DNA from: Marinilabilia rubra | GTDB lineage: Bacteria > Bacteroidota > Bacteroidia > Bacteroidales > Marinilabiliaceae | Assembly: GCF_003121985.1 (NCBI RefSeq) | Contig: NZ_QEWP01000001.1 | Coordinates: 558,001-622,000, forward strand | Length of the DNA: 64,000 nt | Direction: 5' to 3' | In this document: positions 17,275 through 58,957 of the stretch, in pieces | Numbering within the stretch: the stretch's first letter is position 1 | Layout: every line of letters starts with the position of its first letter | The notes under the pieces: generated by a model | The model's input: the letters and a program-made list of their open reading frames with translations, nothing else | What the model was told of the DNA's origin: nothing | Databases searched by the model: none | Translations under genes and position numbers: made by a program

Positions 17275-18861
17275 ATGATAAAAATATACAGATTAACTTT
17301 AAATGTGATAATAGGCCTGTTTGTTAGCGGAACTGTTAATTCTCAAATAACTTATTGGTTAGACCAGTCGGCACTGGATAGCCCCCATCGGGATAAAATT
17401 ATCCAGGCTATGGATTCATGTATAAGCGCCTACAATACTTATAGTAACTACGATGAACATGTAAGGGTTATTTATGATGAAACAATCCCAACTGCGAATG
17501 CCGGCTATCAGGGCCGTATAGCCTTTGGAGGGTCTATTGGTGAAAAAACGGCTATCCACGAGATGTCTCATGTTTTAGGAGTGGGCACTTACCGTGAATG
17601 GGATAATAACCGGGATGCTGATAATAAAAAATGGTTAGGAGAAAAAGCCATTTCCCAGCTGAAGGAATTTGACGGTGAAGATGCAGTATTAAATGCAGAT
17701 CATTGGCACTTTTGGCCTTACGGGTTGAATAAGAACTGGGCTGATGTTGAACATCATGTATACATGGTTGGTGCTTTGAGAGAAGACATGGGACTTTCAA
17801 ATACCAGTGGTGAAGGTGGTGGGAGCTGGTGCAATCCTGCAATGCTTGAAGGGTTTAGTGAAATTAACAATGGCGGAGAAAGGGATTTTGGCTTTGCTTT
17901 TGCAAAAGCAGGTGATGATGTTCGTTTAAAAGCTTCCACCCTATCTGACGACGAAGGTTCCTGGAGTTGGAGTGGGCCCGGTGATTTTTCAGGCAACTCG
18001 GAAAGTATCCTTATTAATGATGTGCAGAAGAATCAAAGCGGCACTTATATTGCAGAATTTACCAAGAATTGTGATGGGGTTACAACCAGAGAGTTTCCCG
18101 TTTTTGTGCATCAACACACTGCTTATTATGCCATTGAAATCACTACAGGTTTCCTTTTGCGACCAGAAACTGATTTGGAAGGATCTGAAATGAAATGTGC
18201 TGAATCTACTGTTACTGATTATTGGGTGCAATGGGAGAAAATTGATACAGATAATGGCTATTTCTACCTGAAAAACCGCAAAACCGGAATGTATTTTCGT
18301 CCGAAAGGGAATAGTGACGGCGACCGCATGGAGCAAATTAAAGTAGAAGATGGAGACGAAAGGGCTCAGTGGAAGATAAAAGACACAGGTGAAGGAAATG
18401 CATTTATAGTGAATCGAAGTACCGGTCTGAAGTTTCGGATTACTTCCGGGCAGGTAAATGATGCTTATATCGAACAAACGCATGATGGCAATACCGGGGG
18501 ATGGACCCGATGGGACTTTGTAATGCTGGATGATGTAGATAAAACATCTACCAGTGTTTCAGAGATGGATGGTTCTTCAGAAAATGATTTGTTGAATTGT
18601 TCACCAAACCCCTTTTCAGGGAAGTTAGATGTTGGCTTTTATGTGCTGGAAACCGGGAAGGTATGGCTGGAGATATATAGTCTTTCAGGAAAACGGATAG
18701 CCATCCTTGTTAGCGGCGAAAAATATCATGCAGGTGATCACTCGCTTGTTTGGAATGGAGAAGGTGACTGGGAAATGTCTCTTCATCCAGGGTCGGTTTT
18801 ACTTGTTCGTTATCGTACCGGACAAGAACTGGTTTCATCTAAAGTAATGCTGAAAAAGTAA
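17275..18861 (+). CDS. secreted zincin-like protein with Ig-like, ricin-type lectin and T9SS domains
   Basis: 528 residues. The signal peptide ends 'SGTVNSQ' (~23). Residues ~25-190 form a small zinc-metalloprotease-like domain with H95-E96-x2-H99 in 'TAIHEMSHVLGVGTYREW'; the third ligand is uncertain, perhaps in 'NADHWHFWPYGLN'. An Ig-like domain (~200-280, 'SWSWSGPGDFSGNSES') and a ricin B-like beta-trefoil (~283-425) follow. The trefoil has repeats 'ATTGFLLRPE'-like, 'NRKTGMYFRPKG' and 'NRSTGLKFR'. A T9SS sorting domain lies at ~440-528. The lectin fold suggests anchoring to polysaccharide. Whether the zincin cleaves protein, glycoprotein or nothing is not known. It lies among glycosidase genes on the same strand. 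Confidence 0.7.
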   Translation: MIKIYRLTLNVIIGLFVSGTVNSQITYWLDQSALDSPHRDKIIQAMDSCISAYNTYSNYDEHVRVIYDETIPTANAGYQGRIAFGGSIGEKTAIHEMSHVLGVGTYREWDNNRDADNKKWLGEKAISQLKEFDGEDAVLNADHWHFWPYGLNKNWADVEHHVYMVGALREDMGLSNTSGEGGGSWCNPAMLEGFSEINNGGERDFGFAFAKAGDDVRLKASTLSDDEGSWSWSGPGDFSGNSESILINDVQKNQSGTYIAEFTKNCDGVTTREFPVFVHQHTAYYAIEITTGFLLRPETDLEGSEMKCAESTVTDYWVQWEKIDTDNGYFYLKNRKTGMYFRPKGNSDGDRMEQIKVEDGDERAQWKIKDTGEGNAFIVNRSTGLKFRITSGQVNDAYIEQTHDGNTGGWTRWDFVMLDDVDKTSTSVSEMDGSSENDLLNCSPNPFSGKLDVGFYVLETGKVWLEIYSLSGKRIAILVSGEKYHAGDHSLVWNGEGDWEMSLHPGSVLLVRYRTGQELVSSKVMLKK

Positions 18862-19002: not shown

Positions 19003-20421
19003 ATGGAGTATTTTAAGTTTTTATTATTCATTTTGGCCGGGCTTCTATTTGAACTCACTTTACTTAATGCCCAAAATGCGTCAAAAAAACCAAACATTTT
19101 ACTTTTTGTTGGTGACGACATGACCTGGAGCGACTGTTCACCGTATGGCAATGAGGATGTTCATACGCCCAATATCGAAAAACTGGCTGATCAGGGTACT
19201 TCTTTTGACAACATGTTTACCGGAACAGCCATGTGTGCCCCTACGCGTCAGCAACTTTATTCGGGAATGTATCCTGTTCGCAGCGGGGCCTACCCCAATC
19301 ACAGCATTGTGTATGTCGGGGCAAAATCCTTTGCCACCTACTTTGGTGAGATGGGGTATCGCAACGCTTTAATCGGCAAAAAACATTATGGGCCTGAGTC
19401 ATCTTTCCCGCTTACTTATTTTGGTGGTGTTCATCATGACAACGGGAAAGGTCAGGATATTGATTTGTCTAAAGTTGAGGATTTTATAGTGGATGATCAT
19501 GAAAAACCTTACTTTATGGTCATTTCACAAAACCAACCTCATATGCCATGGACCAGGGGCAACCATGAGCAGTATGATGCCGAAAAACTAACTGTGCCTG
19601 AATATCTTATTGACTGTGACTTTACCCGTTCGGAAATGGTGAAATATTATGCCGAAATAACCTACATGGACAGTCTTCTTGGGGTATGCATGGATTATGT
19701 TGATCGTTCAGGGGAGGCTGACAATACAATCGTCATTTTCACCAGCGAGCAGGGTTCGCAGTTTCCCTTTGCCAAATGGACGTGTTATGATACCGGGCTA
19801 AAAACCTCTTTTATTATGCGTTGGCCCCAAAAAATCGAGGCTGGAAACCGCATTGATGATTTGTTGCATTACGTGGATGTTTTGCCGACATTAATTGAAT
19901 TGGCAGGAAGTGATCCCCGGAATATTCATACCGGTATTCCCGATGTTTGTGGTAATACAGACTTTGATGGTCAAAGCTTTGCTTCCTTATTTGAGGGGGG
20001 TGATCATCCCCGGGAATATGTTTACGGAGCGCAAACGACCAGGGGAATTTATCACGGGCCAGAAGCATACGCTATTCGATCCATCAGGAACAAAAAATAT
20101 AAACTCATCTGGAACCTGCATCACGAAACGGGGCTTACCAACCTGGTAACCGAAAAAAAGAAAAACAACATTCTGGATATTTGGTTGCGTGAAGCCTCTG
20201 ATTCGTCAGATAGTGCCCGGGTAAAAATGTACACGAACCGGCCCGAATTTGAGTTGTATGATATTCGCAAGGATCCTTATGAGTTGAATAACCTTGCTGG
20301 TGGCGAAGAATATGAGCATGTTAAAAAACGGATGTTCAATGAACTTAGAAAATGGATGGCCAGGCAAGTGGATCTTGGGCATGAGACGGAAATGAGGGCA
20401 TTGGATCGACAAGACAAGTGA
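19003..20421 (+). CDS. S1-type sulfatase (CAPTR motif)
   Basis: 472 residues with a signal peptide (1-23). Formylglycine residue C78 in 'AMCAPTRQQLYSG'; metal residues D38-D39 in 'LFVGDDMTWSDCSPYG'; 'IGKKHYGPESSFPL' provides the conserved Lys/His pair. The second metal site reads 'FTSEQGSQFPFAKW' instead of the common 'SDNG', a variant seen in some S1 subfamilies. Type I sulfatases remove sulfate esters hydrolytically after maturation of the cysteine to formylglycine. It precedes a GH43-like gene by 90 bp and is probably co-transcribed with it. The exact sulfated position cannot be told. Confidence 0.9.
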   Translation: MEYFKFLLFILAGLLFELTLLNAQNASKKPNILLFVGDDMTWSDCSPYGNEDVHTPNIEKLADQGTSFDNMFTGTAMCAPTRQQLYSGMYPVRSGAYPNHSIVYVGAKSFATYFGEMGYRNALIGKKHYGPESSFPLTYFGGVHHDNGKGQDIDLSKVEDFIVDDHEKPYFMVISQNQPHMPWTRGNHEQYDAEKLTVPEYLIDCDFTRSEMVKYYAEITYMDSLLGVCMDYVDRSGEADNTIVIFTSEQGSQFPFAKWTCYDTGLKTSFIMRWPQKIEAGNRIDDLLHYVDVLPTLIELAGSDPRNIHTGIPDVCGNTDFDGQSFASLFEGGDHPREYVYGAQTTRGIYHGPEAYAIRSIRNKKYKLIWNLHHETGLTNLVTEKKKNNILDIWLREASDSSDSARVKMYTNRPEFELYDIRKDPYELNNLAGGEEYEHVKKRMFNELRKWMARQVDLGHETEMRALDRQDK

Positions 20422-20511: not shown

Positions 20512-21663
20512 ATGAGAGTACTATTTGTGTGGTTAAGTATTTTTTTAGGAATTTATGTTTTTTCTTCATGTGGTTCAAGGGCCAATCTATCAGAAAAAGA
20601 AAAAGCTTTCAAAGACCACGATAAGGCCATCTATATTAAAGATGGTTGGATTCGCGATCCCTATATTTTTCTGGATGATGATGGATTTTATTACCTGACC
20701 GGAACCACACCCCAGCCTAATGATCCACGGGTGGAAAAGGAACTTTACAATACCGGACTGGATGCCCAGAATATGGAGCTTTATGGCACTCCCAGTATCG
20801 TTGGACGGAGTTTGAGGGTTTGGCGAAGTAAAGATTTACTGGACTGGGAATATTTGGGCGAACCCTTCACTCTTGATAAGGGGTATTGGGCCGATGTATA
20901 CCCGGAAAGATTTGATACCATCCCCAAACAAGACTGGCGTTTGTGGGCTCCTGAAATTTATAAAATTGATAATAAGTGGGTCTATGTTCACACTACCCCC
21001 TCACCTGTAAAGGGGGGAGCGAACCTGGCAATTTCAGAGTCAGGTACCATGAAAGGTTCATTTAAGTTCCCAATGGGCAAAGATATGCGTTGGAAACATG
21101 ACCCGTCGCTTTTTGAAGACAGTGACGGTACCTGGTATCTCTTGTGGGGAAACACGAATATTGCACCTATTAAATCCGGTTTTAACGGGCTCGCTGATGA
21201 GCCCAAAAGAATTGATCCTGCAGACCGCCGCATTGGTCATGAGGGAGCCACCATACGAAAAATAGGGGACAAATACGTGCATTTTGGGACGGCTTGGTCG
21301 ACGGATAACATGCGTAAAGGTTCTTATAACCTGTATTATTGTCTGGCTGATAGTATTACCGGACCTTATGGGTCCCGCAGGTTTGTCGGTAGATTTCTTG
21401 GCCATGGCACGCCTTTTCAGGACAAAGACGGCCGTTGGTGGTGTACAGTATTTTACAATGCCAATGTCCCACCTGTTGACAAGGAGGGTATTCAGGAGCA
21501 CGATTTGAGCGAAACAGCCCAAACCATCAATGAACAGGGAACCACTATTGTACCGCTGAAGGTAGAGATCAGGGATGACGGTGATGTCTTCATCCGGGCC
21601 AAGGATCCACATTATGCAAATCCGGGGCCTGACGAAGCCCAGGACTTTGATGCGGTTGATTGA
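20512..21663 (+). CDS. GH43-like five-bladed beta-propeller glycosidase, lipoprotein
   Basis: 383 residues. Lipobox 'FSSCGS' with C20 predicts a lipoprotein. The propeller carries the clan GH-F triad: general base D49 in 'GWIRDPYIF', pKa-modulating D197 in 'WKHDPSLFED' and acid E244 in 'GHEGATI'. GH43 and the related anhydro-galactosidase family GH117 share this fold; the blade-one sequence looks GH43-like to me. It would act as an exo-enzyme on a terminal sugar of the fragments. It sits between a sulfatase and a secreted protein of unknown fold. Confidence is high for the fold and moderate for the family. Confidence 0.8.
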   Translation: MRVLFVWLSIFLGIYVFSSCGSRANLSEKEKAFKDHDKAIYIKDGWIRDPYIFLDDDGFYYLTGTTPQPNDPRVEKELYNTGLDAQNMELYGTPSIVGRSLRVWRSKDLLDWEYLGEPFTLDKGYWADVYPERFDTIPKQDWRLWAPEIYKIDNKWVYVHTTPSPVKGGANLAISESGTMKGSFKFPMGKDMRWKHDPSLFEDSDGTWYLLWGNTNIAPIKSGFNGLADEPKRIDPADRRIGHEGATIRKIGDKYVHFGTAWSTDNMRKGSYNLYYCLADSITGPYGSRRFVGRFLGHGTPFQDKDGRWWCTVFYNANVPPVDKEGIQEHDLSETAQTINEQGTTIVPLKVEIRDDGDVFIRAKDPHYANPGPDEAQDFDAVD

Positions 21664-21810: not shown

Positions 21811-23739
21811 ATGAAAATATTTTGTAAGCTTATTGTATTGTTAGGTGTATTTTGGTCTTTTCATATTTCCGCCGGGCAGGTGGTACAAGACCCTGATTTT
21901 TTTCACGGGCCGCGTACCAAGTGGGTGATTTATCCCGAACTTCCTTCAGGGCCTGAATGTACAGGAGGTTGTATAAACCGACATTCTATAATTCCTCAAA
22001 TGGATATTGGGATGGCTGAATGGCTTGGCAACCTGGAAGCTGTCGGGGCCAATTCGGCAACAATTAATCTTGAGGCCAGACGGGGACTTTTGTCATCCCC
22101 GGCTCATGCTACTTTTGATCTTTCCGCCGAACAGATCAATAATGGGGAATTTACCCCATACCAGCGCGACAGGCAGTTGATCAATTTTCTGATCGACGTA
22201 CAGGCGGCCATTAACAGAGGTGCTGTTAACGGAAATATTCGATTTCATGTGCATCAACGGTTATATCCCCGTAGAGAAAGTTCAAGAGAACAGCAGTTTA
22301 TAACCGACTTTTCGGAATTTGTTAATCGAGCCAAAGAATATGGTGTTGATCATTTAATTGCCGGCATAAGATTGGGCGAACATGGAACAGATGGCCGAAA
22401 TTACGTTTTGGAGTTTGCCCTGAAGGTTGTTAATGCAATTAATGAAAACACCGGGGGGTGGCTACGAAACAAGGGCTTAGAAATGAGCGGCGATGAATAT
22501 GGACGGATGTTTAAAAATATACATACCCGGGCGCTTTCTTCTACCTTTTTCGAAGAAATTAGCGGGGAAACAGGATACTTTACATTTTGCTTTAAAGCTT
22601 TTGGAGTAGGCGGCAGGTTACGTGATATGGGGTATGATACAGAATCGGTTTCCGGTTGGGAAACCGGCCTTCGGGAAGGCTTAGGGCTTGACGATTTAGT
22701 TAATTTTATTCAGGATCATCGTGAAGAATATCCTTATCATGCCAATGTAATTTTTATTGGCGATTCAGGAGATGCGCTTAAGCAAATCGGCTGGCAGGAA
22801 TATTGGGCTACAACCAATATTTTTACTCAGGCCGGTGATGGGTTTTCCGGAATTATTGGGGTCAATGGGTATCGGAGACCCGATAAAGGAACGGATGATA
22901 ATCACCTCTATTTTTATGATGCCATAGATGGAACCACAGCCACAGCTAAACCTAATAGTATTCAACGATGGCAGGCATGGCCATTTCACGATGGGGATGT
23001 AAGTGAACACCACATTGTACTGGCCAAATCAGGGATGTATGGCACCATGCAACCAGCCGGCCCTTTGAAAGTTGATAATGGTGCAAGCCTGGATTTTTCA
23101 GCTACGCCATGGCCCGGCTATGAAATCTCCGAAATTCTTGTAAATGGCAATCCTGTTTCTGTTTCAGAAAATTTTTCGATAGAAAATATTACCAGCAGTA
23201 CAAAACTTCAGGTAAAATACAGGAAAACGGAAGCTGTTCATAATGTGATTGCTTTCTCTGGTCATGGGGGAACCATTTCTCCTTCCGGTGTTGCCGGTTT
23301 TAATGATGGAGAAACAGCCACATACAGTATAACTCCATATCCCGGATATGAGGTGAAATCATTGCTGATTAATGGTGAGGAAGTGTCTCCAAGGGAAACT
23401 TTAATTCTTGAGCCTGTTGATAAAGATCATACCGTTCAGGTCTTTTTTAAAGCAATTACCAGCTCTGTCTCTGATGAATTTGAAGATGTCTTAATAGATG
23501 TTTACCCTGTTCCTGCAAAAAGCGGTGGATCTGTGTTTGTTGAACTGGATGGTTGGGGTATGCGAAATTATTCACTTAGTTTGTTTGATATGCGGGGGCG
23601 TTCTGTAAGTGATTATTCACCAGAATTAACCGGAACCGGTATGGTTTTGCATCTAGGGAATATTGACGGAGGGCTTTATTTTCTAAAAATTGATATCGCC
23701 GGGAAATCACTGTTAAAGAAAATACTGGTTGAGGACTAA
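21811..23739 (+). CDS. secreted protein of unknown catalytic fold with two InlB-type repeats and T9SS tail
   Basis: 642 residues. Signal peptide 1-22 ('...SFHISAGQ'). Residues ~25-400 match no family I recognise. They alternate helices and strands in a TIM-barrel-like way, with conserved-looking acidic motifs 'AGIRLGEHGTDGRN' (E190) and 'LEMSGDEYGRMF'. Two divergent InlB/'bacterial repeat' domains follow (~405-475 and ~482-552, both with 'PGYE' and 'LVNG/LING'), then a T9SS sorting domain (~560-642, 'VLIDVYPVPAKSGGSVFVEL'). A secreted glycan-active enzyme or binding protein is likely from context. It lies between the GH43-like and esterase genes. Confidence 0.6.
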   Translation: MKIFCKLIVLLGVFWSFHISAGQVVQDPDFFHGPRTKWVIYPELPSGPECTGGCINRHSIIPQMDIGMAEWLGNLEAVGANSATINLEARRGLLSSPAHATFDLSAEQINNGEFTPYQRDRQLINFLIDVQAAINRGAVNGNIRFHVHQRLYPRRESSREQQFITDFSEFVNRAKEYGVDHLIAGIRLGEHGTDGRNYVLEFALKVVNAINENTGGWLRNKGLEMSGDEYGRMFKNIHTRALSSTFFEEISGETGYFTFCFKAFGVGGRLRDMGYDTESVSGWETGLREGLGLDDLVNFIQDHREEYPYHANVIFIGDSGDALKQIGWQEYWATTNIFTQAGDGFSGIIGVNGYRRPDKGTDDNHLYFYDAIDGTTATAKPNSIQRWQAWPFHDGDVSEHHIVLAKSGMYGTMQPAGPLKVDNGASLDFSATPWPGYEISEILVNGNPVSVSENFSIENITSSTKLQVKYRKTEAVHNVIAFSGHGGTISPSGVAGFNDGETATYSITPYPGYEVKSLLINGEEVSPRETLILEPVDKDHTVQVFFKAITSSVSDEFEDVLIDVYPVPAKSGGSVFVELDGWGMRNYSLSLFDMRGRSVSDYSPELTGTGMVLHLGNIDGGLYFLKIDIAGKSLLKKILVED

Positions 23740-23928: not shown

Positions 23929-24840
23929 ATGAAAAAAATAATCTTTCTTCTGGTTTTTATTCTTTTTGTATCAAATGCGCGTTCAAATGAACCATTTGAA
24001 TATAATTATTCATGCGTATATAAGACAATTGATACGACTAAACTTTCTTTACATTTCATCACTCCGGCTTCTATGTCGGATGACAAAGAATATCCTGCCA
24101 TTGTCTTTTTCTTTGGCGGCGGGTGGATTGGTGGCAGTGTTAAGCAATTCGAACCTCAGGCAAAATATCTTGCACAAAGAGGAGTGATTGCTGTATTGGC
24201 GGAATATCGAGTTGAAAAAAGAAACGGAACCACACCCTTTGATGCAGTTGAAGATGCCAAATCGGCAATACGTTATTTGAGAGCAAATGCATCCGGGCAT
24301 AAAATCAATCCAGACCAAATTGTTGCAGCAGGCGGATCAGCAGGCGGTCATCTGGCGGCGGCTACAGCTACTTTAGAGGAGTTGAATGCTCCGAACGATG
24401 ATCTGTCTGTAAGTTGTGTCCCAAATGCTTTAGTGCTATTTAATCCGGTGATTGACAATGGGCCTGACGGTTATGGATATGAGCGAATTAAAGCTCGGCA
24501 TAAAGAGATATCACCACTGCATAATATCCACCAAAAAGTTCCTCCAACAATTATTTTCCTGGGTACAAAAGATCATTTAATCCCGGTTGAAACGATGATA
24601 AAATTTAAAAATGAAATAGAGGCTTTTGGCGGTCGTTGCGATCTCTTTTTGTATGAAGGACAAAAGCATGGCTTTTTTAATCTGGGTGCCTTTAATAAGA
24701 ATAGCCCTGAATTTTTTAATGAAACTATGTACAGGACTGATCTCTTTTTAATGTCGCTTCATTATATTCCAGGAGGGCCTAAAATAAAATCAGAAATAAT
24801 ACCAATAGGTCTAAGAATTGAATCTGATTGCGGTAATTAG
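23929..24840 (+). CDS. alpha/beta-hydrolase, probable secreted carbohydrate esterase
   Basis: 303 residues with a signal peptide (1-20). Hormone-sensitive-lipase-like alpha/beta-hydrolase: oxyanion-hole motif 'FFFGGGWIGGS', nucleophile S137 in 'AAGGSAGGHLAA', acid D215 in 'LGTKDHLIP' and base H247 in 'GQKHGFFN'. All triad members are present. Relatives in PULs remove acetyl or other acyl groups from polysaccharides. The substrate here is unknown. It is on the same strand as the flanking PUL genes, 189 bp after the InlB-repeat protein. Confidence 0.85.
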   Translation: MKKIIFLLVFILFVSNARSNEPFEYNYSCVYKTIDTTKLSLHFITPASMSDDKEYPAIVFFFGGGWIGGSVKQFEPQAKYLAQRGVIAVLAEYRVEKRNGTTPFDAVEDAKSAIRYLRANASGHKINPDQIVAAGGSAGGHLAAATATLEELNAPNDDLSVSCVPNALVLFNPVIDNGPDGYGYERIKARHKEISPLHNIHQKVPPTIIFLGTKDHLIPVETMIKFKNEIEAFGGRCDLFLYEGQKHGFFNLGAFNKNSPEFFNETMYRTDLFLMSLHYIPGGPKIKSEIIPIGLRIESDCGN

Positions 24841-25114: not shown

Positions 25115-26257
25115 ATGAAGGAGCTTTTAACTTTTATAATGTTATTTGCGGGTTTAAGTGTGTTTGCCCAGGACAATATCAAATACACTAATGACATGGA
25201 TTATGTGTTGGGGGATGTCAAGCAAGCCTTTATTCATGATAAAATCTCGAATAAAACTCAGGTTGATAATCTGATAAAGGGCTTTAAGAGTCTTAAAGTT
25301 AATGGTATCCGGATTCCGATTTTTGCTGAGGGACTTGAGCCAAATAAGGCCATGCTTGATTATTTTTTTGAACAGGCAAAGGCCTATGGTTTTAAGATTT
25401 TTGCCAACCCTGCTCTTACCAGTGGAGGTATACGCATTGCCAATGTTGTTTTTAAAGATGAGGATGCAGGAGGATCTGTTTGGAACGATCCCGTAAAAAC
25501 TCAGGTGCTAATTGACAGAATCAAGGCTTTTGCAATTGAATATCCCTGCGATTGGATTTGTCCCTTTAATGAAGATGGGAGACCCGGGAAAAAATGGTCG
25601 GTAGCGCAATACAATGCGATCTTCCAGGGGTTGTTGGGGCAACTCAATGGGGCTGAGCTTGTTGGTTCCTGTCAGTGGGGCCTTGAGGCTGGGATTTTAA
25701 CCTTTGATAAAACCGAAACAGATCAATATATTAGTGTTGCTACCTCCCATAATCTGGGGTTTAACCATAATTTGTGGTCAACTTTCATAAATAAGGCCAG
25801 AGCGAAGGGCTTACCCGTTTGGGATTCAGAAGTTAATCACAATCAAAAATATCCCGACAGGCTTACAAGGCTTGAAGCAGCCCTTGAAAATAAGGTTGAT
25901 GGTTTGGTTATATATAATAGTTGGAGGGGGATTAACCTCTCCAACGGCACTTTGAATAATACTGAGCGGGTTTTGGAACAACAAGCCCTTTTTTTGGATA
26001 GTCAAACCTCTGTTAATGATTTGTATGGTGTTGATTCTGTTTTTGTTTATCCCAATCCGGCCTCCGAATTTATCAGCGTTAGCGGATATGTAAATGTCAA
26101 ACAACTTTCTTTGATCGATTTACAGGGGAAAATTGTAAGGTCTCAATCTGAAGCCAATCAATTAATCGTTGAAGGTCTTTCACGAGGAATATACATCCTT
26201 AAGCTTGAATTATTTGATGGTCATGTTAAGTATATGAAGGTTACAATTAACTCTTAA
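25115..26257 (+). CDS. secreted TIM-barrel glycoside hydrolase candidate with T9SS tail
   Basis: 380 residues. Signal peptide 1-18 ('...GLSVFAQ'). A compact (beta/alpha)8 domain (~30-295) has strand-end glutamates at clan GH-A positions: E153 in 'DWICPFNEDGRPGKKW' and E239 in 'LPVWDSEVNHNQKYP'. 'VNGIRIPIFAEGL' resembles the first strands of such barrels. The T9SS sorting domain occupies ~305-380 ('SVFVYPNPASEFISV', 'LSRGIYILKLE'). It is secreted, small and without binding modules; I cannot name a family. 111 bp of its coding sequence recur at 30237-30347, where a truncated paralogue remains. Confidence 0.65.
   Translation: MKELLTFIMLFAGLSVFAQDNIKYTNDMDYVLGDVKQAFIHDKISNKTQVDNLIKGFKSLKVNGIRIPIFAEGLEPNKAMLDYFFEQAKAYGFKIFANPALTSGGIRIANVVFKDEDAGGSVWNDPVKTQVLIDRIKAFAIEYPCDWICPFNEDGRPGKKWSVAQYNAIFQGLLGQLNGAELVGSCQWGLEAGILTFDKTETDQYISVATSHNLGFNHNLWSTFINKARAKGLPVWDSEVNHNQKYPDRLTRLEAALENKVDGLVIYNSWRGINLSNGTLNNTERVLEQQALFLDSQTSVNDLYGVDSVFVYPNPASEFISVSGYVNVKQLSLIDLQGKIVRSQSEANQLIVEGLSRGIYILKLELFDGHVKYMKVTINS
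25843..25953 (+). repeat. direct repeat, copy 1 (inside the TIM-barrel gene)
   Basis: 111 bp shared with 30237-30347 in the same orientation, with 8 mismatches counted by eye (~93% identity). Six of the eight changes are synonymous in the reading frame, so both copies were once coding. Confidence 0.9.
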
Positions 26258-30347: not shown

Positions 30348-30372
30348 TCCCGGAGTGGTGATTACTCCTTAA
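30238..30372 (+). pseudogene. remnant of a second TIM-barrel hydrolase gene
   Basis: A 44-codon frame without start signals translates to the same 36-residue stretch as residues 244-279 of the hydrolase at 25115 ('KYPDRLTRLEVALENK...'), with only A-to-V and S-to-N changes. It then reads a different short tail ('FPGVVITP') and stops. The T9SS domain and all upstream parts are missing. The end overlaps the 3' end of the convergent gene at 30362. It is best read as what is left of a paralogue removed by deletion or insertion. Confidence 0.8.
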
Positions 30373-32524
30373 CAAACGTATTTGCAGAAATTTGTTCAGA
30401 GTTATCCATTAATTGCAATAAATAAACCCCTTTTGGTAATATTCTTATGTCTATTTTGTTTTTTTCTGTCATGCCTGTTAATGTACAATCACCGGCCATA
30501 TTAAAAACCCTGTACTTATATTTAAATCCTTCCTGATTGTCCTTAATATATAAGAAATTAATCGAAGGGTTTGGGTAAATCTCTATTCGGTTTTGTTTTG
30601 AATCATTTATGCCCGTTTCGTTGTTTAGCAATATTTTAAAGCAATACAACGAAAAACCTTCCAGATCATAACTAAAGTTGGTTGAGAATGTATTGGCTAA
30701 TTGCGATACTTCTCCGGATCTGTTTAAAGAATTTTGCCATTGAGTCACTTCAATATCCTGACCCGCTAAATCATAGCCCGATACATCAAACTCTACTAAC
30801 GTTTTGTCAAAAGGACTTAGATTCAGGGCAAAGATGGTCAATACATTGTCCTTAATAAATGAGGTGGCTAAAACATCCGCAGAAGATTGGGTTGTTTCTA
30901 AATAATAGCCCCCATTGGCATTATTGACTACCTTTTTGAAAATTTCGTATTTTGTCGATTTTAAGATGTCTTTGTCGTTTGACCATATCATTGTGTGATC
31001 TTTCCCATTGTACGGGCCGTAAAATAACCATGTATCCAATCCAACGAAACCAGCTTTTACATGCTCAAAAAAATGCTTCGAATTAATTATTTCGTCTTGT
31101 TGAACGATGCCTACCCAATTATGTAATTCAGTATTCCAGGGTTCTTTGCCCAGTTGGTTGGCTTTGTTAACAAACCCTTCCGGAGTTCCACCATCACCCG
31201 TATTATGACTTGCAGCAATAGCAATAGATTCAATTTCATCCGGTGTTGCATTGTTTAAATAGTTTACCCCCTGCTCGTAACTCCATGTGGAAGGAGCAAT
31301 AAGCTCAGGCATATAAACCCCCTCATTTAGCATATCAGGTATGTTGTCATACAGATATTTACCATGTGTTGCAGTAATTTGATTCTTTTCATTAGTAATA
31401 TCCAAATAATCAATTTTAAAGCCTTTGCTGTGCATAAAATTCAAATAATCGGCATAGTATCTTGCTAATTTATCCACATACAAGTTGTCAAATACCCACT
31501 TTTTTACAACTTGTCCATCAACGGTTTTTGTGCCATTCTCCCTCCAGGTCATTATCCAGGCCGGTACCGGAGCCCATGGAGCCTTGGGGCCGCCCCATAC
31601 CGTCCAGGCTTCATTAGTCGAATAAGCTTCATCAAGTGGACGAGGACTGGCAAAAAACTTAATATCAGGGTTCGCTTGCTTCATCGCGCCCATCATGTTC
31701 AGGATTTTATCATATGCTTCAGGCTTTTTTACACCTTCTTCTCTTTCATAGGCACAGCTAATGGCTACACGCACAAATTCTGATTGTAATTTTTTAACTC
31801 CCAGTTCTGCCAGTTGTGTGCTTAACTCATTGGTTCTCCAATACCACAAGCGTTCAGCATCAATGCCAAAACGAAGTTTTTGCTTTTTATTGGAAGTAAC
31901 ATTTACCAATACCGAGCTTTCAGATCCAATTGAAATATACTCGCCTTTAATGGTTACTTTGTTCACATTCCAATCGAATGTTCCGTAATCAGGGCCACGG
32001 GCACAGACCCATGCAGTAACCGAGTTGTTGGTGCCTGATGATGCATAGTCAATAGGTGGATTATACGTTGTACTATTTAAGTTACTTGAAAATGGGATGT
32101 TATCAGTTGACTGATTGATATCCTTATTGTCGGGTGTGACTTCATTGTTTGTACAACCTATCCTGTAATAATATGGACCATCTGCTAAACTGGCACTATG
32201 CTCCACAATTATTTCCGTCACTACCAGCGAATAACCATCAATGGGCGTAATATTCATTGCCATATAGGTATTCTTATAGTTTGTTGCATTGTTATTAATG
32301 ATTTCACAACTCAAAACCGTTTTTCCTTCGACAGATTGAAAGCCTGTTGAGTTTATTTTAGGCCCTCCTGTTATAGCTGGATCGCCAACAATGGCTTCGC
32401 TTCCCATAGAAACCAAGGCCTGCATGGTATTATTAAAATTATACTCTATGCTAAACTTGTTAGTCTGTGCAGAAAGCCCTAAACATAGGTTTATAAATAG
32501 TAGTGGCAGTAAAACTCTTTTCAT
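30362..32524 (-). CDS. secreted clan GH-A-like glycoside hydrolase (GH30-like layout) with T9SS tail
   Basis: 720 residues. Signal peptide 1-19 ('...LCLGLSAQ'). Residues ~22-200 form a beta-sandwich of binding-module type. A TIM barrel (~210-560) has candidate acid/base E379 in 'DYLDITNEKNQ' and nucleophile E466 in 'EPWNTELHNW'. A small beta domain (~565-640), as in GH30, follows, then the T9SS sorting domain (~645-720, 'NRIEIYPNPSINFLYIK', 'LPKGVYLLQL'). Family membership is not certain. It is transcribed leftwards. Immediately upstream lies a broken T9SS-tail remnant rather than a recognisable promoter. Confidence 0.7.
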   Translation of the reverse strand: MKRVLLPLLFINLCLGLSAQTNKFSIEYNFNNTMQALVSMGSEAIVGDPAITGGPKINSTGFQSVEGKTVLSCEIINNNATNYKNTYMAMNITPIDGYSLVVTEIIVEHSASLADGPYYYRIGCTNNEVTPDNKDINQSTDNIPFSSNLNSTTYNPPIDYASSGTNNSVTAWVCARGPDYGTFDWNVNKVTIKGEYISIGSESSVLVNVTSNKKQKLRFGIDAERLWYWRTNELSTQLAELGVKKLQSEFVRVAISCAYEREEGVKKPEAYDKILNMMGAMKQANPDIKFFASPRPLDEAYSTNEAWTVWGGPKAPWAPVPAWIMTWRENGTKTVDGQVVKKWVFDNLYVDKLARYYADYLNFMHSKGFKIDYLDITNEKNQITATHGKYLYDNIPDMLNEGVYMPELIAPSTWSYEQGVNYLNNATPDEIESIAIAASHNTGDGGTPEGFVNKANQLGKEPWNTELHNWVGIVQQDEIINSKHFFEHVKAGFVGLDTWLFYGPYNGKDHTMIWSNDKDILKSTKYEIFKKVVNNANGGYYLETTQSSADVLATSFIKDNVLTIFALNLSPFDKTLVEFDVSGYDLAGQDIEVTQWQNSLNRSGEVSQLANTFSTNFSYDLEGFSLYCFKILLNNETGINDSKQNRIEIYPNPSINFLYIKDNQEGFKYKYRVFNMAGDCTLTGMTEKNKIDIRILPKGVYLLQLMDNSEQISANTFVKE

Positions 32525-33247: not shown

Positions 33248-34561
33248 ATGAAAAAGATCAGAATTAACAAGTTCTTTAGATTTTTTGTGCTCCTTGGATT
33301 TTTAGCAGGGTGTAGTGAACAGTCCTCCTTTCATGAGGTAGAGGAATCAAACAATTATGTTGGAAGTTTAAAATCCGCTGATTTAACAGCCGAAGTAGAT
33401 CCTTCCACTTTTCATCAGGAAGTGACCTTTGGAGGTGATGGAAAACTGACCATAAAAGATTGGGCAGAAAAAGATGTTTCAACCACTTCACAGCTGCTAT
33501 TCGGAGATATGCAATTAAAGGTTCTGCGAGTACCAATTTTTGCGTTGCAGGATATCTCCGATCCCATTTATGATAACGTAATAACTGTAATTCAAGCCGT
33601 ACAGAACGTAAATCCCAATGTTGAAATTTTTGCCAGCATTGCAAATGGTGATGGCTATGGAAATCATTATCATGGAGCTGATAAATTTCCCAACCAATGG
33701 ATAGGTTGTTGTCCTTATAATGTGTATGATCTAAACTTAACAGCTTATGCTTCTTACCTTGATAGCTTCATGGACAGAATGAGTAATGTCGGAATTAACA
33801 TCGATTACCTTGGTCCCTGGAATGAGGATCCTGCAGATGAAAGTGATCACCGGAAAGTATTTGATCAAATGCTTAATTTAGGTGGTACCGCAAAAGTAGG
33901 ACTTGAAAGATGGGGGTTGCAAACTTCAGTAAATGATGTAGAAGATGTAATGGGGCAAATAAATGTTTCCGGCTCACATTTTTATGATGACGATGCTATT
34001 GCTGAATCATCATGGGAAAGCACGTGGCAACAGTTGGTAAACAAATCTTCAAATCCGGTTTGGTACACTGAAGCCACAAGATATTCAACCAATGATGGCA
34101 TTGAAAACCTCATAGCCGGAATGAATAATATTTTTCCTGCCATAAGAGGAGGAGTTGAAAATGTAACATTTTACCAAGTCGTAAAAAGGTTTGTTTGGGC
34201 TAATGGTACGGCTCTTCCAATTAAATATTCAGGGTTTAAAAATCTTGTTAATAATGCTTCAGGAAAAAGAGTGGTGCCTTCGAACTCTTCTATTAACGAT
34301 GTAAAAGTAATTGCTTTTGCAAAGAATAAAAGTTTGAGTTTGCATTTTATTAATCTATCAACCAACAATAAAACAACCCGGATTGAATTACAAAGCGGGT
34401 ATGAAGCTCAGGGAACAGTAACAAGAACAATTTGGACTTCAAGTGATACTGAAAGTAGCAATAGTTATAATCTAGGGGGCAACTCGGCCTGGAATGTAAC
34501 CATCCCGGCAGAATCATATGTACATATTAATGTTCCTCTGAATAATAATGCAGGGAATTAG
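33248..34561 (+). CDS. lipoprotein clan GH-A-like glycoside hydrolase (GH30-like)
   Basis: 437 residues. Lipobox 'GFLAGCSE' (C22) predicts a lipoprotein. A TIM barrel (~55-345) has candidate acid/base E193 in 'IDYLGPWNEDPAD' and nucleophile E275 in 'NPVWYTEATRYS'. It ends in a beta domain (~350-437) without a T9SS tail. The positions of the two glutamates and the C-terminal beta domain fit a GH30-like enzyme, and it resembles a reduced version of the protein at 30362. Probably anchored in the outer membrane or facing the periplasm. A strong terminator follows, so it is likely monocistronic. Confidence 0.7.
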   Translation: MKKIRINKFFRFFVLLGFLAGCSEQSSFHEVEESNNYVGSLKSADLTAEVDPSTFHQEVTFGGDGKLTIKDWAEKDVSTTSQLLFGDMQLKVLRVPIFALQDISDPIYDNVITVIQAVQNVNPNVEIFASIANGDGYGNHYHGADKFPNQWIGCCPYNVYDLNLTAYASYLDSFMDRMSNVGINIDYLGPWNEDPADESDHRKVFDQMLNLGGTAKVGLERWGLQTSVNDVEDVMGQINVSGSHFYDDDAIAESSWESTWQQLVNKSSNPVWYTEATRYSTNDGIENLIAGMNNIFPAIRGGVENVTFYQVVKRFVWANGTALPIKYSGFKNLVNNASGKRVVPSNSSINDVKVIAFAKNKSLSLHFINLSTNNKTTRIELQSGYEAQGTVTRTIWTSSDTESSNSYNLGGNSAWNVTIPAESYVHINVPLNNNAGN

Positions 34562-56212: not shown

Positions 56213-56344
56213 TATTTTGAAGCTAAACTCTCTTTTTGCAATGAATTGAATATAAAGTAATTGGTAGGAAAAAACAAGGATGTTGTCTTGTGGGTGCTTT
56301 GCCCGGCCTTGCAAATTAATTGTTTACCAATAAAAATAGATTTT

Positions 56345-58957
56345 ATGGATCATAGATTATATTTCTTAAGACAAGTTGTTTTTTTAGCTTTATTTACCAT
56401 ATGCTTTTCTTTGAATGCAGGAAATCAATCTCATAAAACAGGTTTTCTCAGAATTCAAACTGAAAGTGGTCGTGAGATAGAGCAAGGCGTAAGTGGATTT
56501 AACGTAAGAATAGCTGATAGCCCCTGGAATTATACTCATCCTGAATTTCGAAATGCTGTTCATACGCTTAAACCCGGCTGGTTGAGGTACTTTTCAGGAA
56601 CAATGGGTGATGCTTTTAATAGTGCTACCGGCCTTTACGATAAGGATTATGCCTGGATGTTTGATAAACAGGATCAATACTTCCGGGGATATGCATTTAC
56701 TGATGTTAAAGGGCCTCACCGAATAGTAGATTTATACGATTTGCTGGGGGAAGTTGGTGGTAAACTCGTAGTCACGATCAATGGATTTTCCGAAACACCC
56801 GAGGTTGCCGGTGAGCTGGCACGTTTTTGTAAAAACAATAACATAAAAGTGGAGGTATGGCAGTTTTGCAATGAGCCTTATTTCTATGTTCCACATCGTG
56901 ACCGTTTTTGGTGGAATGACGGGTATGACTATGCCTTAAAGATGAAGCCTTATGCGGAAGCAATCCGGGAGGTGTTTCCTGATGCTAAATTGGCATTGAA
57001 TTATACATGGGATGGAATATGGGGATTCATGAAGGAGATCCATAAATATCAGGAGAAGAATGGCGCCTACTGGGATGTGTTTTCCAAGCATTCTTATGCT
57101 CCCCATATTGGGGGAAAGGAATCATTTCAGAATGCATATAAACGCGGAAATACCCGTATCATTAGTGCAACATCTTCAAAAGCCATGGATAATATTGAGG
57201 CTTATACCCGGGAGGATGTGCCTATGTTAATTACTGAATTTGGGGTGTGGAACCGTCCATTAAACGGAATCTATTCCGGTATTTACTATGTGGAATATAC
57301 CTTGCGACAGCTTCAGCATTCTAATGCTTTTCTTATTGGTAGCCATGAGATTAGTAATAAATATGTTCCTGAGAAGAATTTGAATAAAGTTGTTTTAGAC
57401 GCTTATTACAGTGGAAAAGAAATTGATACCGACACTTTAAAAACCGGGGGTACTCTAAATTATGATGGCAAAGGTGTTAAAATAATGCATGAGGCAACCA
57501 ATAATAGTGATTTCACCTGGGATGTTGAGGTAAATGGCGCTCCATTGGTTGAAGGTCTTAAAAATAAGGAAGTTTCCGGTGTTTATGCGCGGGCGTTCAA
57601 AGGGGTTGAAGGACATAATTATCTGGTGGTCACCAATCGCTCCGGTGAGGATTGTTTTTTTGATGTCTGGTTAGGAGATGAAACTCTGGAGGTAGATATG
57701 GAAAGAACTTTTATGGCCTCTGAAAAAGCTCAAAATAAGGATTTTGATATTAAAACAGATCATGTCAACTCTAACAATGTGGAAATCCCGGCCTATTCAG
57801 TAGTTCTTTTAAAATGGGAATCAAAGGAGAAAACTGCGCCGTCAAAATCAAGAATTTATAAATCATCAGTGGTTGAAGACGGAATAGAGTTGAAATGGTG
57901 GAAACGAAACTCTGCAGATAAATATGAGGTGTTTGCAGGAGAATCATCCGATAATCTAAAAAAGGTTCACTCAGTCGAAGATGGTTCGAATAGTTATGTT
58001 GTTAAAGGGTTAAAGCCTGATACGAAATACTATTTTGCGATTGAATCCATTAACCGGAATGGACACAGTGGTTTGTCTGAGACAGTGAGTCTCACTTATG
58101 AAAAACCTGAAAAACCTGAAATTTTTAAAGTTGCACGTAGAGATACAACCATCACTGTTATGTGGAAAAGTGTGCCGGATGCCAGTGGGTATAAGGTGCG
58201 CATTAAGCCTGAGGAAGGAAATGAAATCGTATATGATGCTGAAAATGTTTTTGGTTATAGAATTTCAGGATTGAATTATGATGAAGAGTATTCTGTTTCT
58301 GTCTCGGCATACAATGGTTTAGGGCAGGGAGATTACTCTCCTGTACAGACCGTCATCTGTAAAGAATTTCTACCCATTCCTCCCAGAAATATTTCGGCTA
58401 AAGAGACCCCTAAGGGAAGTATTGCGCTGCAATGGGTGCATCAGGATACGATAAATCCGGGGGTGAAATACAGGTTGTTCCGGGGAACCGATCCTTCAAA
58501 TATGAAAATGATAAAGGAGGAAATTTCCGGAAATCATTATTTGGATGAAAGTGTAAAGCATGACAGGAAATATTTTTATACTGTAAAATCCTATAATGAT
58601 GCCGGAGAGTGTAATTTCCATCCTAATATTGCCACAGTTATCAGCAATGATGAGATTGTAAGCATTGAAATTGTCAATATTGAGAAAACTGAAGCGGCAT
58701 TTAAAATAGAAGTTTCATTTGAAAATGTGAAAACCGATGGAAATGTTGAATATGGTGTTGCATTAAGTGATATATCCTATTTGAATGTAGAGGAAGATAT
58801 TTTCAAAACCTCTGAAGTCTCTGGTAATTCATACACCATAGAAATTCCATTTTCAGAGTTGAAAAAGGGACGAACGTATGCTATTCGAGGTGTGATTTTC
58901 ACCAATGGAAGTCCTGTTTACAGTCTTCCTCCTCATAAAAATATTTCGGTTGAATAA
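56345..58957 (+). CDS. clan GH-A-like glycoside hydrolase with FN3 domains, no T9SS tail
   Basis: 870 residues from ATG 56345, which gives a proper signal peptide ('MDHRLYFLRQVVFLALFTI...'); the longer frame to 56261 adds an unlikely leader. The TIM barrel with accessory beta domain (~35-490) has candidate acid/base E177 in 'WQFCNEPYFYVPH' and nucleophile E298 in 'LITEFGVWN'. Three FN3 domains (~495-780) and a last beta-sandwich (~785-870) follow. It is a clear paralogue of the protein at 13596 ('GFNVRIADSPWNYTHPEF' against 'GYNVRIADSPWNFNNEVF'). It lacks that protein's N-terminal binding module and T9SS tail, so it should stay in the periplasm. It lies between two sulfatase genes. Confidence 0.75.
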   Translation: MDHRLYFLRQVVFLALFTICFSLNAGNQSHKTGFLRIQTESGREIEQGVSGFNVRIADSPWNYTHPEFRNAVHTLKPGWLRYFSGTMGDAFNSATGLYDKDYAWMFDKQDQYFRGYAFTDVKGPHRIVDLYDLLGEVGGKLVVTINGFSETPEVAGELARFCKNNNIKVEVWQFCNEPYFYVPHRDRFWWNDGYDYALKMKPYAEAIREVFPDAKLALNYTWDGIWGFMKEIHKYQEKNGAYWDVFSKHSYAPHIGGKESFQNAYKRGNTRIISATSSKAMDNIEAYTREDVPMLITEFGVWNRPLNGIYSGIYYVEYTLRQLQHSNAFLIGSHEISNKYVPEKNLNKVVLDAYYSGKEIDTDTLKTGGTLNYDGKGVKIMHEATNNSDFTWDVEVNGAPLVEGLKNKEVSGVYARAFKGVEGHNYLVVTNRSGEDCFFDVWLGDETLEVDMERTFMASEKAQNKDFDIKTDHVNSNNVEIPAYSVVLLKWESKEKTAPSKSRIYKSSVVEDGIELKWWKRNSADKYEVFAGESSDNLKKVHSVEDGSNSYVVKGLKPDTKYYFAIESINRNGHSGLSETVSLTYEKPEKPEIFKVARRDTTITVMWKSVPDASGYKVRIKPEEGNEIVYDAENVFGYRISGLNYDEEYSVSVSAYNGLGQGDYSPVQTVICKEFLPIPPRNISAKETPKGSIALQWVHQDTINPGVKYRLFRGTDPSNMKMIKEEISGNHYLDESVKHDRKYFYTVKSYNDAGECNFHPNIATVISNDEIVSIEIVNIEKTEAAFKIEVSFENVKTDGNVEYGVALSDISYLNVEEDIFKTSEVSGNSYTIEIPFSELKKGRTYAIRGVIFTNGSPVYSLPPHKNISVE

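Follow-up and report, generated by a model that had tools for sequence, protein, structure and literature searches.

A putative cell-surface glycoside hydrolase of a very sparse, uncatalogued family in a sulfated-polysaccharide locus of Marinilabilia rubra

We propose that the protein encoded at positions 21811-23739 (+) of the window, the whole 64,000-nucleotide stretch of M. rubra DNA that was analysed, is a putative cell-surface glycoside hydrolase of a very sparse, uncatalogued family that probably acts on a sulfated glycan. We consider this the probable reading. Here "uncatalogued" is judged against Pfam, NCBIfam, PHROGs and PDB sequences. Because the main domain falls in no catalogued family, has a predicted sugar-cutting fold and carries three conserved acids at catalytic places, we regard the protein as a candidate for the founding member of a small new family. 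The fuller version of this proposal is tentative: a new glycoside hydrolase (GH) family with a GH-A-like barrel and an unusual strand-4 Glu/strand-7 Asp (GDxGD) set, specialised for sulfated glycans in a few Bacteroidota. Many enzymes that open sulfated polysaccharides still lack assignment.

The open reading frame, called and translated from the DNA, starts with ATG and encodes 642 residues. These are arranged as an export signal, a domain of residues ~23-400, two InlB-type repeats and a type IX secretion (T9SS) tail:

21811..21876 (+): probable N-terminal export signal peptide, residues 1-22, a hydrophobic stretch judged by eye from the translation
21877..23010 (+): candidate catalytic domain without family assignment, residues ~23-400, predicted to be a (beta/alpha)8 barrel (AlphaFold2, Foldseek)
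23023..23226 (+): first InlB-type repeat, residues ~405-472, found by self-alignment with the second
23251..23454 (+): second InlB-type repeat, residues ~481-548, found by a Flg_new_2 match below the cut-off and by self-alignment
23500..23730 (+): T9SS type A C-terminal sorting domain, residues 564-640 (PF18962, TIGR04183)

The sorting tail scored above both curated cut-offs (PF18962, 27.1 vs 27 bits; TIGR04183, 24.9 vs 23 bits), and a gene for the T9SS translocon protein SprA is present in the genome (TIGR04189, 2789 bits). With sorting domain and translocon both present, we class the protein, by sequence, as a T9SS type A cargo, which would be exported by Sec first and then by the T9SS. We observed that the two repeats aligned to each other with a score of 124, whereas 500 shuffles reached 46 at most; Pfam matched the second repeat only, below its cut-off (Flg_new_2, 20.4 vs 23.6 bits). 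The repeats most likely form a stalk or a weak glycan-binding spacer. The initial annotation had described export and T9SS signals, two InlB-type repeats and a main domain of no recognised family. The tail scores bear out the sorting signal, the signal peptide is plausible by eye, and the repeats stand well clear of the shuffles. The ~375-residue domain had no match among Pfam, NCBIfam and PHROGs models or PDB sequences. PDB profile matches to ribosomal protein L7, KRas and an iron-transport binding protein were set aside as chance.

Homologues of the domain were found in one other genome, the Bacteroidetes metagenome-assembled genome SZUA-561, which carries three copies with 55, 27 and 20% identity to the M. 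rubra protein. SZUA-561 was the sole further genome with convincing matches in an order-wide sample (n = 393 genomes; local identities 56% and 34%). Profile searches added its third, more distant paralogue (E = 4.5e-7), and a profile-guided scan of the genome collection led to SZUA-561 again. The three relatives aligned to the M. rubra protein with scores of 1070, 218 and 79 (shuffle maxima 56-57). All three carry a terminal T9SS-type tail. One tail exceeds the Pfam cut-off, another exceeds that of TIGR04183, and the tail of the closest relative falls short of the cut-offs. An InlB-like repeat is also present in this relative.

No relatives were found by an exact-peptide scan of one genome per species, and no homologue in samples of 396 genomes of the phylum and 61 close relatives. 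A phylum sample searched with a four-row profile yielded no additional convincing member, and searches of plasmid, phage and viral collections found no relatives of the domain. Weak same-family matches (E = 0.02-0.7) were judged to be chance after residue-by-residue inspection. Later weak profile matches (E = 6e-4 to 0.01) were short, some with internal stops, and were rejected as relatives, as was a candidate frame containing stops. A literature search turned up no account of SZUA-561 or of this domain. Because convincing homologues occurred in SZUA-561 only, across samples and profile scans, we regard the four-member family, on sequence evidence, as real but very sparse in the collections scanned; these scans were pattern-limited or covered samples, and the sparseness holds for them.

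Several recent GH families have no Pfam model, and the domain might accordingly be a divergent member of an existing CAZy family that lacks both a Pfam model and a structure in the libraries. This reading overlaps with the one we prefer and does not exclude it. We consider it doubtful, since neither the domain in any member tested, including those of SZUA-561, nor the family profile matched Pfam, NCBIfam or PDB, and since only one other genome was found, unlike for most CAZy families.

Conservation was scored over the four sequences with a MAFFT alignment and independent pairwise alignments. The only acids invariant among the four homologues, down to 20% identity, were D180, E190, D318 and D321. 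R150 and K262 were also invariant in all four by both methods, and the MAFFT alignment alone added N172, K175, N211, W387 and W390. The invariant set holds no His or Tyr. Invariance is a coarse measure here, because there are four sequences and three come from one genome. The positions discussed below are:

22258..22260 (+): R150 codon, end of predicted strand 3, candidate anionic-substrate contact
22378..22380 (+): E190 codon in a GEHG motif, two residues past predicted strand 4, candidate acid/base
22492..22497 (+): D228-E229 of SGDEYG, acids not kept and unlikely to be catalytic
22594..22596 (+): K262 codon, end of predicted strand 6, candidate anionic-substrate contact
22762..22773 (+): codons of D318 to D321 in VIFIGDSGD, past predicted strand 7, candidate nucleophile/base

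The acidic motifs around E190 and in SGDEYG had been put forward initially as possibly catalytic, with conservation of the acids as the check. E190 passed this check, being present in 4/4 homologues and following predicted strand 4. The SGDEYG acids did not: in the three relatives D228 is D, A or K and E229 is G throughout, so that the glycines are kept and the acids are not. The stronger acid pair, D318 and D321 of VIFxGDxGD after strand 7, was absent from that annotation; GDxGD is invariant in 4/4 homologues.

We performed structure prediction with AlphaFold2. The single-sequence model reached a pLDDT of 35 and was not used. The four-row alignment gave a model with a pTM of 0.64 and a mean pLDDT of 55, with a pLDDT of about 65-90 through much of the stretch 100-290 (model numbering) and below 50 in the N-terminal third and the strand 8 region. 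Adding 20 to the model numbering gives the protein numbering (E170 = E190, D298 = D318). Strands were predicted at model residues 19-20, 62-67, 124-129, 163-168, 202-206, 236-242, 290-296 and 326-327, with helices between them; the first and last are short and of low confidence. This modest-confidence model (pLDDT 55) predicts eight strands in (beta/alpha)8-barrel order. In the model, E190 lies two residues past strand 4, and D318 and D321 lie two and five residues past strand 7. R150 follows strand 3, K262 ends strand 6 and D180 is at the start of strand 4. Catalytic residues after strands 4 and 7 are the placement of clan GH-A.

A Foldseek search against the PDB returned 113 matches at E <= 0.001, with GH5 enzymes at the top. 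The best match had E = 2.8e-6 and prob 1.00, and TM-scores were at most 0.56 by target and about 0.3-0.5 by query. GH5-type matches were also obtained from the viral library. The initial annotation had suspected an enzyme and proposed structure prediction with a fold search. Because the fold matches are GH5-type barrel enzymes, they point, through the modest-confidence model, to an enzymatic domain and not to a non-enzymatic structural family.

A surface protein built on a degenerate GH-type barrel could instead bind sulfated polysaccharide and pass it to neighbouring enzymes without cutting it. The InlB-type repeats and T9SS tail would suit such surface display, and both the Asn-Glu signature and the strand-7 Glu of clan GH-A are absent. 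Catalytically dead barrels tend to lose the acids at their strand ends, whereas three such acids, at the C-ends of barrel strands, are here among the few residues invariant down to 20% identity. We therefore hold this binding role to be unlikely. TIM barrels are also found in non-hydrolases. The domain could be a polysaccharide lyase, with a role for the invariant R150 and K262, an enzyme of isomerase/epimerase type, or a hydrolase that depends on a metal held by D318/D321 (and E190). Foldseek also matched sugar phosphate isomerase/epimerase (3l23, 3obe) and endonuclease IV (8rly) at similar E-values. We judge such other chemistry improbable, given that GH5-type hydrolases dominate the list, that the invariant set lacks the His or Tyr needed by most lyases and metal sites, and that secreted isomerases of barrel fold are unusual.

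The putative glycoside hydrolase lies among genes for polysaccharide use. As the initial annotation had noted, a GH43-like enzyme and an esterase flank it, and profile scores agree with both assignments:

19003..20421 (+): sulfatase, two genes upstream (PF00884, 134 bits)
20512..21663 (+): GH43-like enzyme, immediate upstream neighbour (PF04616, 77 bits)
23929..24840 (+): BD-FAE/abhydrolase_3 esterase, immediate downstream neighbour (PF20434, 96.8 bits)

Beyond the GH43-like enzyme and the sulfatase lies a RicinB-lectin T9SS protein, and beyond the BD-FAE-type esterase lie a T9SS protein without family and a raffinose-synthase-like enzyme. The window contains six sulfatases in all, a LacZ-type GH2 beta-galactosidase, GH43, two SusC/SusD pairs, a BT_3987-like N-domain protein and a hybrid two-component regulator. 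Judged by gene content, this locus is a system for a sulfated polysaccharide.

The T9SS-type RicinB lectin protein upstream of the sulfatase (17275-18861, +) has an HEMSHVLGVGT motif and resembles a zinc metalloprotease. The 380-aa T9SS protein at 25115-26257 (+) had no catalytic family match, and its CPFNED and LPVWDSE motifs allow a GH-A barrel-like reading, which makes it a second candidate hydrolase without family assignment near the first; by profile it showed no relation to the family described here. The proteins at 30362-32524 (-) and 33248-34561 (+) also lack a Pfam catalytic family and carry clan GH-A-like N-E motifs (ITNEKN; GPWNED); no PDB sequence relatives were found for their catalytic parts. 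The protein with fn3 domains at 56261-58957 (+) is likewise GH-A-like in its N-terminal region, where FCNEP and LITEFG motifs occur and no Pfam assignment was made. The 5.4-Mb genome as a whole has ~70 sulfatase matches, a marked specialisation for sulfated glycans.

In SZUA-561 the homologues likewise occur beside sulfatase-related genes:

L015 2567-4066: sulfatase upstream of the tandem paralogues
L015 4056-6095 (+): 679-aa protein between the sulfatase and the two paralogues, no family assigned
L015 6153-7532 and 8265-9632: tandem paralogues, downstream of the sulfatase and the 679-residue protein
L014 2265-4220: closest relative, adjoining a formylglycine-generating-enzyme-type (sulfatase-modifying-factor) gene (PF03781)

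The only match of the 679-aa protein, to a C5-epimerase, was at chance level. We compared the SZUA-561 sulfatase with the ~70 sulfatases of the M. rubra genome. The best two matches scored 252 and 215.6 bits and the third 106; the second-best is encoded at 19003-20421, two genes upstream of the M. rubra homologue. Because two sulfatases score far above the rest and one of them stands beside the homologue, the same kind of sulfatase appears to accompany the family in both genomes.

These data suggest how the putative enzyme may work. The ~375-residue domain, as a (beta/alpha)8 barrel, would hydrolyse a glycosidic linkage of a polysaccharide that is sulfated or anionic in some other way. E190 would serve as general acid(/base), and either D318 or D321 as nucleophile or base. 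R150 and K262 may contact negative charges. An anionic substrate, most plausibly a sulfated one, is suggested by the invariant basic residues at two strand ends and by the sulfatases near the family in both genomes. The domain would work beside the sulfatases, GH43-like enzyme, esterase, GH2 enzyme and SusC/SusD proteins of the locus. The family appears to pair a barrel fold with an atypical strand-4 Glu/strand-7 Asp arrangement; it is rare and is linked to sulfatases in two genomes, which belong to different families within one order. As a testable target it is small, comprising four sequences, three residues that are candidates for catalysis and a defined set of neighbouring genes.

Compared to GH5 and clan GH-A (PDB 4lx4, 5ljf, 5d9m), the domain would, going by the modest-confidence model, share the (beta/alpha)8 order, a conserved Glu after strand 4 and conserved acids after strand 7, but has no detectable sequence similarity (Pfam, NCBIfam, PDB). 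Clan GH-A usually has an Asn before the strand-4 Glu and a Glu after strand 7. Here, the residue before E190 is G, G, I or D in the four members and never Asn, and the strand-7 acids are Asp (D318, D321; GDxGD) with no conserved Glu. Because the domain lacks the strand-4 Asn and has Asp as its strand-7 acid, we do not file it as a GH-A member; going by the model, it may still work like a GH-A enzyme. An O-GlcNAcase was among the fold matches, and clan GH-K/GH18-GH84-type barrels have their catalytic acid where strand 4 ends, the place of the candidate E190 here. Their DxxDxDxE or Asp-Asp strand-4 motif is absent in 4/4 members of this family, in which the invariant strand-4 acids are instead D180, at the strand start, and E190. 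The tandem ~70-residue repeats share PGYE and L.NG motifs and resemble the InlB B-repeat (Flg_new_2, PF18998), but fall below its Pfam cut-off and are accessory rather than the main domain. At the level of the locus, the carrageenan system of Zobellia is a Bacteroidota locus for a sulfated algal glycan (PMC5698469). The M. rubra locus differs from such loci in that the main domain of the protein studied here is of no recognised family, and resembles them in its clustering with sulfatases, here together with GH2/GH43-type enzymes and SusC/SusD pairs.
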